Below, piece by piece: positions 21,053-41,956 of a DNA stretch of 64,000 nt. Origin of the DNA: Geobacter sp. AOG1 (lineage in GTDB: Bacteria; Desulfobacterota; Desulfuromonadia; Geobacterales; Geobacteraceae). The notes under the pieces were generated by a model. It did no database searches and was not told the DNA's origin. It saw only the letters and a program-made list of their open reading frames with translations. A program made the translations under genes and the position numbers. Positions within the stretch are counted from its first letter, which is position 1. Each line of letters starts with the position of its first letter. The DNA lies in the NCBI RefSeq assembly GCF_019972315.1, contig NZ_BLIZ01000001.1, positions 2,300,558 through 2,364,557 on the forward strand, read 5' to 3'.

Positions 21053-21355
21053 ATGGAACTGACCGGTAAGCAGAAACGATTTCTCAGGGGACTTGGGCAT
21101 GGGCTCAAGCCGATTATTACGGTTGGAAAAAACGAGGTGAATGCCGCGCTTGTGCAGCAGACCGACGAGGCTCTATCGACCCACGAGTTGGTCAAGATCA
21201 AGATTCTCGAAAGCTGCCTTCTTGACCGCCACGGGGTTGCGGATGAACTGGCGGCCACCTGCGGTGCGCAGGTGGCCCAGGTGCTGGGGCGGACCATCCT
21301 TCTCTATCGGCCGGCGACGGAACCGAAACTGGAACTTCCCAAGAGTAAAAAATAG
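21053..21355 (+). CDS. yhbY: YhbY/CRS1 (CRM-domain) RNA-binding protein
   Basis: A 100-aa single CRM domain: LTGKQKRFLRGLGHGLKP, the GxxG-like VGKNEV, 'ALSTHELVKIKIL', and GRTILLYRP. YhbY binds pre-50S ribosomal particles. ATG 21053 is preferred over GTG 21038 because MELTGKQ is the usual start. It ends in a strong hairpin. Confidence 0.92.
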   Translation: MELTGKQKRFLRGLGHGLKPIITVGKNEVNAALVQQTDEALSTHELVKIKILESCLLDRHGVADELAATCGAQVAQVLGRTILLYRPATEPKLELPKSKK

Positions 21356-21379
21356 GGACGCCCGGAAAGGCGTCCCTAT
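21352..21379. terminator. Hairpin between convergent yhbY and secreted-protein gene
   Basis: ATAGGGACGCC and GGCGTCCCTAT form a perfect 11-bp stem with a six-base loop, overlapping the yhbY stop. It lacks a T-run, so termination efficiency is uncertain. Confidence 0.65.
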
Positions 21380-21402
21380 CGGATGAGGCGGATACAGCCA
21401 GA

Positions 21403-21966
21403 CTAGTCGTCGCCTCTATCGTGCTTGCCCCTTTTTCGCTCTTCTTTATCCCACTTTTTTTCTTCCTTCCACTCTTCCTTGCGCTGCTTCTTCCACGCCT
21501 TGTCGGGACGGAAGTATTTTCCCCGGTAGTGTTCGCGGTCCTCGCGGTAGTGGTTGTACTCTTCGTCCCGGTAATGGCGGATCTGCTCATAGCGGTATTT
21601 GCGCAGACCCGGGGGAAGGTTGCGCTCCGGCACCACGATCCACGGACCGTTGTAATTGCGGCCCCGGTACCATGCTCCACTGTTGAAAAGGTAGTAGCGG
21701 CCGGAGATATACACCAGGTCATAGGGAATGTCGATGGCTACGTGAAAGCCGAGTTCGGGGGGGGCAAGAAACACCGGCGGTTGCTGGATGATGATCTGTG
21801 GTGGCGCGGGAGGGGCGTAGACTGGCGGTGGGGGGGCGTAAATCGGCGGTGGTGGTGGTACGGGTGAGCCGCCGCGGATGTTGATGTCGATGCCGACATC
21901 AGCCCCGAAGGAGGCACGTGCGACAAGCGAGATTGCCAGGGTAACTGTTAACAACGTGCGTTTCAT
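21403..21966 (-). CDS. Secreted Pro-rich protein under riboswitch control
   Basis: A 187-aa protein with a signal peptide (cut near SFGA). Next comes a Pro-rich stretch with a repeated (I/V)YAPP(P) unit, then a domain reading 'PYDLVYISGRYYLFNSGAWYRG' and 'GPWIVVPERNLPPGLRKY', which is seen in other secreted proteins with Trp/Tyr-rich repeats. The tail is rich in Arg, Tyr, Lys and Glu. AGGAGGT lies nine bases before ATG 21966. The transcript leader contains a GEMM-I aptamer and terminator (22032-22150), so the gene should respond to a cyclic dinucleotide. A cell-surface or matrix role is inferred. Confidence 0.78.
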   Translation of the reverse strand: MKRTLLTVTLAISLVARASFGADVGIDINIRGGSPVPPPPPIYAPPPPVYAPPAPPQIIIQQPPVFLAPPELGFHVAIDIPYDLVYISGRYYLFNSGAWYRGRNYNGPWIVVPERNLPPGLRKYRYEQIRHYRDEEYNHYREDREHYRGKYFRPDKAWKKQRKEEWKEEKKWDKEERKRGKHDRGDD

Positions 21967-22031
21967 GACTGGATTACCTCCTGGGTAGGGTTGTTCCCAT
22001 TTCTGCAGGAACATGCGAATTGCAGTTCGAC

Positions 22032-22150
22032 AAAAAAAGCCGTATTGCCGGTATACCTGTTACTAGATATTTCGGCAACCCGGCTGTCTTCGTGAGACCC
22101 TGTAGGCTTTCCGTCCCACCCTCGCGGGTGGTTTAGTATTATCGTATATC
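22032..22150 (-). promoter_or_regulatory. GEMM-I cyclic-dinucleotide riboswitch with terminator platform
   Basis: The minus strand has the conserved GEMM-I blocks in order: TAAACC, a stem CACCC/GGGTG, GGGACGGAAAGCCT, a second stem, and GCCGGGTTGCCGA. GATAT/ATATC can close the outer helix. Aligning on AAACC puts A, not G, at the position equivalent to G20 of the Vibrio Vc2 aptamer, as in GEMM-Ib riboswitches that prefer 3',3'-cGAMP. GCCGGGTTGCCG (22073-22084) can instead pair with CGGCAATACGGC (22039-22050) before seven Ts, a terminator excluded by the folded aptamer, so an ON switch is predicted. It sits 66 bases before the ATG of the Pro-rich protein. Confidence 0.85.
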
Positions 22151-22175
22151 CACAATCCTGTAATGTTCTCAGGAC

Positions 22176-22205
22176 TGAATAGCGTATTATAACGGCGAAA
22201 GTCAA
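22176..22205 (-). promoter_or_regulatory. Sigma-70 promoter of the riboswitch transcript
   Basis: TTGACT (22200-22205) with TATTCA 18 bases downstream on the minus strand. A TATAAT also lies only 8 bases downstream, so the true -10 is uncertain. Transcription would start about 20 bases before the aptamer. Confidence 0.5.
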
Positions 22206-22309
22206 GGGTTTTTGTGGCAGGGGTCAAGTCGTGCTTTTCGTTAAATCCGTGGCATAGTATATACGGTACCTGTTTGGCTGAATTTGAGGGTGAGAGGAGT
22301 TATCGATAT

Positions 22310-22498
22310 ATGGCAAGGAGCGTCTGGGTGGACCGTGAGGAATGCATCAGCTGTGGACTCTGCGTGTCTCTACTGCCGGAAGTGTTCCGCTTCGAGGGGG
22401 GAAAGTCGGACGCGTACGCCCCGACCGGTGCTCCGGAAGAGAAGATTCAGGAATGCGTCGACGGCTGCCCGGTTGGGGCTATCCACTGGAAGGATTGA
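22310..22498 (+). CDS. Single [4Fe-4S] ferredoxin
   Basis: A 62-aa ferredoxin with one CxxCxxC set (CISCGLC) and the distal CP (CVDGCPVGAI), enough for one [4Fe-4S] cluster. The extra Cys just before the distal one matches the disulfide pair seen in single-cluster ferredoxins such as those of Desulfovibrio. Start ATG 22310 has AGGAG upstream at an 11-base distance. It is transcribed away from the riboswitch-controlled gene. Confidence 0.9.
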   Translation: MARSVWVDREECISCGLCVSLLPEVFRFEGGKSDAYAPTGAPEEKIQECVDGCPVGAIHWKD

Positions 22499-41832: not shown

Positions 41833-41860
41833 CCTCCGAAACTTGCCCAAACTGCCTTTT

Positions 41861-41893
41861 AACTTAACCCCGTGAGGTTAGCAAAGGTGTCGA
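41861..41893 (+). promoter_or_regulatory. PyrR-binding RNA element in the pyr leader
   Basis: The leader reads CCCCGTGAGGTTAGCAAAGG inside a TTAACC/GGTTAG stem, matching the conserved PyrR-binding loop CCnGUGAGGnUngnAAGG. UMP-loaded PyrR should bind here and favour the terminator at 41918-41956. Confidence 0.8.
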
Positions 41894-41917
41894 AAACAGT
41901 TACCAGAAGAGTATTCT

Positions 41918-41956
41918 GAGAGCCTTTCCGCCTGTCCGCGGAGAGGCTCTTTTTTG
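41918..41956 (+). terminator. Attenuator terminator of the pyr operon
   Basis: AGAGCC/GGCTCT outer and TCCGC/GCGGA inner stems followed by six Ts, just downstream of the PyrR-binding element and before pyrR. Confidence 0.85.

Follow-up and report, generated by a model that had tools for sequence, protein, structure and literature searches.

Which second messenger does the RNA leader of a small-protein gene in Geobacter sp. AOG1 read, in which direction does it switch the gene, and is that gene its regular target or a chance neighbour? We addressed these questions computationally in a 64,000-nucleotide stretch of DNA (the window, G000:C1:2300558-2364557), taken from a genome that forms a single contig of 3,677,207 bases. 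The riboswitch, its terminator and the target gene all lie on the minus strand of the window (Table 1).

Table 1 Features of the riboswitch and its target gene, in window coordinates.
Feature	Position	Strand	Basis
Likely promoter, weak: -35 TTGACT 22205-22200, -10 about 22181-22176 (TATTCA)	22176-22205	minus	conservation
GEMM-Ib (cGAMP-class) aptamer including P1	22066-22150	minus	RF01051, P1 and junction register, published helix limits
GEMM-I aptamer match, RF01051 (c-di-GMP-I)	22147-22071	minus	cmscan 50.6 bits, E 6.1e-7, model 1-87
Ligand-discriminating base A, equivalent to A14 in published cGAMP riboswitch numbering	22137	minus	RF01051 alignment and register mapping
P2 helix with GCGA tetraloop, 26 nt like published C15-G40	22111-22136	minus	sequence and PMC6274999 numbering (available part)
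C75 equivalent, ligand partner; paired instead in the terminator fold	22075	minus	folding and published contacts
Intrinsic terminator stem, 5' arm formed by the aptamer 3' strand (P3/P1)	22038-22085	minus	-23.8 kcal/mol, z -5.3
Terminator T run, 7 T	22032-22038	minus	sequence and folding
Ribosome-binding site AGGAGGT	21976-21982	minus	sequence; conserved in the genus
Target gene, 187 aa, start ATG 21966	21403-21966	minus	

The leader contains an aptamer with the bases of a cGAMP pocket

The initial annotation had recognized the conserved GEMM-I blocks in order, read an A at the ligand-discriminating position and asked for a covariance search with RF01051. Both readings held: the match exceeds the curated gathering score of 35 bits, placing the aptamer in the GEMM-I class, and A is found at the discriminating position both by RF01051 alignment and by the published contact register. 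Folding of the whole leader gave a z score of -5.83, with none of 200 dinucleotide shuffles as good. Because the leader folds about 5.8 s.d. below dinucleotide shuffles and other genomes have the aptamer in front of the same gene, we conclude that it is not a chance match. Two Rfam matches in the window reach their gathering scores, this aptamer and a PyrR binding site (RF00515) on the plus strand at 41851-41955, the latter with 54.9 bits against a cut-off of 54.

The aptamer can be followed in published numbering from one end of P1 to the other. P1 joins G1-G8 (22150-22143) to C76-C84 (22074-22066), with seven of seven scored pairs forming; J1/2 corresponds to A9-A14 (22142-22137), A41 and A42 to 22110 and 22109, and G74-C75 to 22076-22075, and P3 reaches 22077, one base more than published. 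The solved cGAMP riboswitch contacts its ligand through G8, A9, A11, A12, A14, C15, G40, A41, A42 and C75 (PMC6274999), and all ten bases are present in register in the window aptamer, the mapping having been made through the numbering, helix limits and lengths in the available part of that paper and not by alignment to the crystal sequence. At the discriminating position the Rfam consensus has G, the base of GEMM-Ia, and the window has A. We take A14 of the cGAMP riboswitch numbering to be equivalent to G20 of the c-di-GMP aptamer.

A competing terminator predicts activation by ligand

When the last 24 nt of the aptamer were folded together with the downstream RNA (with 100 mononucleotide shuffles of the downstream RNA as the reference for z), 12 aptamer nucleotides paired with downstream nucleotides around a 1x1 mismatch, close to the 11 of 12 pairing positions first counted between the aptamer 3' strand and the terminator. 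The terminator stem re-uses AGCCGGGUUGCCG, and by folding the aptamer and terminator structures are mutually exclusive, as in a GEMM-Ib ON riboswitch with a competing terminator. A simple terminator scan did not list the site at 22085-22038, perhaps because its loop limit was 3-8 nt.

Since the terminator re-uses the aptamer's 3' strand, ligand should turn transcription on. Two precedents make this the expected direction here: the terminator of the G. metallireducens pilM riboswitch sequesters C75, which puts an end to ligand binding (PMC9262584), and anti-termination is described as the route by which the pgcA riboswitch acts as an ON switch (PMC6456294). We therefore infer that the window riboswitch is an ON switch, a logic that the initial annotation had proposed and that is supported by folding, by the published contact positions and by 28 other leaders of the same gene.

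The target gene encodes a small, probably exported protein

We place the start of the target gene at ATG 21966 because AGGAGGT lies at 21982-21976 and relatives align from that Met. The ATG at 22014, which would give the longest open reading frame, is disfavoured by the ribosome-binding site and the homologues, both of which point to 21966. By eye, the protein has a hydrophobic, signal-peptide-like N terminus, and it is probably exported; calling it surface-type is a guess from the N terminus and composition. It does contain the Pro-rich stretch originally ascribed to it, together with a conserved part around 'YYLFNSGAWYRGRNYNGPW', a predicted small beta core (residues about 65-112) and predicted helices rich in charged residues that run to the C terminus.

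The protein had no match in Pfam at E <= 1 and none in NCBIfam; one sequence search of solved structures gave a single hit at E 0.17, which we take as chance, and a second gave none. An AlphaFold model built from 4 sequences was weak (mean pLDDT 66, pTM 0.46), and the best Foldseek match of this weak model in the PDB had an E value of 0.9. Nine of the 29 riboswitch-linked homologues described below match WXXGXW (PF12779) at E <= 0.01, the best at 2.9e-6; the Pfam scan did not assign the window's own protein to this family.

Upstream of the aptamer, the -35-like TTGACT is kept in the four genomes of the genus, and TTGAC occurs in many other leaders. A promoter consensus scan returned 0 sites in 21300-22400. 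We rejected TATAAT at 22191-22186 as the -10 element, as it begins only 8 nt past TTGACT and is not conserved in the genus.

Riboswitch and gene occur together across genera

A homologue search over 58 genomes, the source genome included, found a homologue in 52. The loci analysed further were those of the best homologue in 48 genomes, 30 of them from the first search set and 18 from the second; G006, G014, G038 and G041, whose best E values were 6.8e-13 or weaker, were set aside. In 29 of the 48, spanning 14 genera and three families, the gene is preceded on its own strand by an RF01051 aptamer. Every one of these 29 leaders has A at the discriminator and a terminator on the aptamer 3' strand, with 11-17 aptamer nucleotides paired and z scores from -1.8 to -9.2 relative to mononucleotide shuffles. 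In 27 of them, 132-224 nt separate the aptamer core from the start; the other two have it 773 nt (L042, where a paralogue intervenes) and 749 nt (L085) upstream.

The linkage is frequent, not universal. Nineteen of the 48 loci have no upstream aptamer (L035, L040, L048, L050, L051, L052, L082, L083, L084, L086, L087, L088, L089, L090, L092, L093, L095, L096 and L099); one of these, L040, abuts a contig end that makes its upstream region untestable, and another, L035, has an A-type aptamer downstream only. These 19 include all 7 examined genomes of genus g13 and 5 of the 6 of family f4. We built a protein tree with 49 rows, one for each of the 48 best homologues and one for L100, a paralogue from the source genome; a second paralogue, L101, was left out. 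A single group of 38, with support 98/99, holds 28 of the 29 riboswitch-linked proteins. The linkage label requires 6 changes on this tree, against a mean of 15.8 for shuffled labels and with 0 of 500 shuffles as low, and well-supported branches force at least three changes; with six changes, the linkage was therefore not passed on in a single, unbroken inheritance. Neither of the two paralogues fetched from the source genome (L100, L101) has an aptamer. Relatives of the target protein, 39-43% identical, are encoded on two Chlorobiaceae MAG contigs (L021, L022), and no GEMM-I aptamer was found in about 8.4 kb of sequence from each.

Could a genuine aptamer stand before the gene at 21403-21966 by chance, as a decayed or transposed copy that does not control it? 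The genome holds 19 such aptamers, some of which could be strays, but for this one we find the idea scarcely credible: aptamer, terminator and gene occur together in 29 of 48 genomes and 14 genera, even where three neighbouring genes were not found in the fetched flanks. The neighbours in question, yhbY, ferredoxin and dgt, variously flank the target gene in many genera, and aptamer and gene are found together without any of the three in the fetched flanks (about 0.8-1.5 kb) in, for example, g11 and in g16 and g22 of family f3. Among the four genomes of the genus, moreover, the aptamer differs at one base while the flanks vary. The assignment of the GEMM-I class, the A-type pocket and the target gene is supported by the covariance model, the published contacts, folding and the 28 other leaders of the gene.

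The genome encodes a GEMM-I regulon and candidate cGAMP synthases

Of the genome's 19 RF01051 aptamers, 17 carry A at the discriminator and the other two, L001 and L002, carry G. The same kind of terminator is present in 13 of the 18 leaders other than the target's; folding did not find the usual terminator in L010, L001 and L002, and the L006 and L009 leaders, which ended at an early T run in the fold test, fall outside the terminator count. Other targets in this genome also keep an A-type core upstream in their homologue loci, in at least 22 of 29 for L007, 28 of 30 for L016 and 14 of 30 for L008, figures that are lower bounds because the pattern misses atypical aptamers (such as L010) and some flanks are clipped by contig ends. 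The counterpart for the window gene is 24 of the 30 loci of the first search set, obtained by cmscan where the others were obtained by pattern. The window gene is therefore one of several stable regulon members and not an exception.

The L010 aptamer itself (positions 1501-1577 of its locus; G000:C1:2824446-2824522, minus strand) has A at the discriminator with a differing P2 base and P1, and precedes a gene in which CxxCH haem motifs were seen by eye; it may be akin to the omcST riboswitch with its two ligands.

We read 20 of the genome's 21 GGDEF matches, taking the last, L122, as part of L118 on account of an identical open-frame length. Two of the proteins, L113 and L121, have Ser at the signature site that is Asp in diguanylate cyclases, so at the level of sequence the genome contains the Hypr GGDEF proteins with Ser expected of a cGAMP-signalling organism. 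L113 is a REC-GGDEF (GGDEY) protein; among solved structures it matches 6d9m best, an entry described as an endolysin-diguanylate cyclase fusion and taken by us to be the T4 lysozyme-Gmet_1914 Hypr structure of PMC6456294. L121 combines a HAMP domain with GGDDF, and its Ser was read by eye, the pattern not having matched. GSU1937 has been reported with GGDDF and HAMP, and work in G. sulfurreducens has connected both this protein and GacA with cGAMP production (PMC6456294, PMC8835794). On sequence grounds, L113 and L121 are candidate cGAMP synthases. A further protein, L114 (G000:C1:36785-37255), carries Thr at the signature position of its GGDEF domain, a site usually occupied by Asp or Ser.

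Selectivity for cGAMP over c-di-GMP

A riboswitch of this class could also be promiscuous or mainly c-di-GMP-responsive in the cell, which would make the gene part of a c-di-GMP response. The omcST operon riboswitch of G. sulfurreducens is reported to be sensitive to both dinucleotides (PMC6456294), a protonated adenine can allow cGAMP riboswitches to bind c-di-GMP (cited in PMC9262584), and in G. metallireducens a high c-di-GMP strain shows raised expression of several predicted cGAMP genes (PMC12285248). Strict selectivity is therefore not assured, given the dual sensitivity of omcST and the discordant expression in G. metallireducens, but we regard a chiefly c-di-GMP-driven or promiscuous switch as improbable here, with the cGAMP contact bases present, A in 29 of 29 leaders of the gene, and two G-type aptamers standing beside the 17 A-type in the same genome. 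The discriminating base matters for the choice of ligand: the A20G substitution converts the riboswitch of Gmet_0970 into one for c-di-GMP (PMC6456294).

A-type and G-type aptamers recur in tandem outside the window

The most unusual thing we saw is a recurrent A-type/G-type tandem leader, which lies outside the window. At G000:C1:2518760-2518477, on the minus strand, an A-type aptamer (L009) is followed by a G-type aptamer (L001) on one leader, and the A-type/G-type tandem is also present in L053, L054, L055, L056, L059, L060, L066 and L075. By pattern, mixed tandems occupy 9 of 30 loci that had been picked as the best-scoring aptamers of their genomes, and cmscan finds at least two aptamers in each of the 9. 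The sequence 3' of the tandem's G-type aptamer includes a stretch complementary to the ribosome site, and inspection by eye shows changes in both partners from one genus to another; the protein downstream is often fibronectin-type by appearance. The A-type/G-type pair is absent from the two-input tandem table in the available part of PMC9481103. Such a leader may be read by two second messengers.

A model for control of the target gene

We hold it very probable that the window leader is a GEMM-Ib cGAMP ON riboswitch for the gene of a probably exported, repeatedly riboswitch-linked protein family. The aptamer, its pocket bases, the mutually exclusive fold, the conservation with the gene and the presence of the enzymes are computed results, from which we infer the aptamer's preference for cGAMP and the role of the protein. 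Without ligand, the AGCCGGGUUGCCG strand of the nascent RNA would pair downstream to form the terminator, and transcription would stop before the gene. As Hypr GGDEF enzymes raise 3',3'-cGAMP in the cell, the ligand would be held in the junction by A14 and C75, locking P1 and P3; the ligand-bound aptamer would then block the terminator and allow the gene to be transcribed. The product, probably exported, would probably act outside the cytoplasm in a metal-respiration or surface-contact state under cGAMP control, an extracytoplasmic role suggested by the repeated placement of the family under a cGAMP riboswitch in related genomes.

Relation to known systems

The riboswitch itself is nothing new in kind. 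Published work already covers its class and ON mechanism, the A rule, the synthases and the regulon in Geobacter, and in 2009 a conserved sequence present in multiple copies was noted to overlap predicted cyclic diguanylate riboswitches (PMC2700814). Our contribution is the conservation of a cGAMP-class switch with this protein family. The available part of PMC6456294 names OmcAHG, GSU0181-0183, PgcA, pilMNOP, OmcST and 'multiple hypothetical genes' as GEMM-Ib targets, in type cytochromes, a pilus operon, lipoprotein transpeptidases and unnamed hypothetical genes; an orthologue of our target gene may be among those hypothetical genes. No paper names the family as a target in the article listings and passages that the literature search covered.

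Geobacter uses cGAMP riboswitches to adjust its surface for respiring metals. Small and probably exported, the target protein is placed behind the same switch in 14 genera, which makes it a good candidate for a component still missing from this programme; it is probably one of the regular outputs of the cGAMP signal. We would offer only tentatively the stronger proposal that it is a core, old cGAMP effector of the periplasm or cell surface, neither cytochrome nor pilus, made on switching to mineral contact, whose loss would impair attachment to Fe(III) oxide or its respiration.

Among protein families, WXXGXW (PF12779) offers a likeness to 9 of the 29 homologues, with the window protein itself unmatched. 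Among RNAs, GEMM-Ia, the c-di-GMP-I riboswitch of the RF01051 consensus, has its overall fold and covariance model in common with the window aptamer, but has G at the discriminator where the window has A. The closest likeness in kind is to the Geobacter GEMM-Ib riboswitches of pgcA (GSU1761), G. metallireducens pilM and Gmet_0970, with which the window switch shares its aptamer class, discriminator A, contact bases, terminator on the aptamer 3' strand and ON logic; it differs from them in its target gene and in a P3 one base longer than the published numbering.
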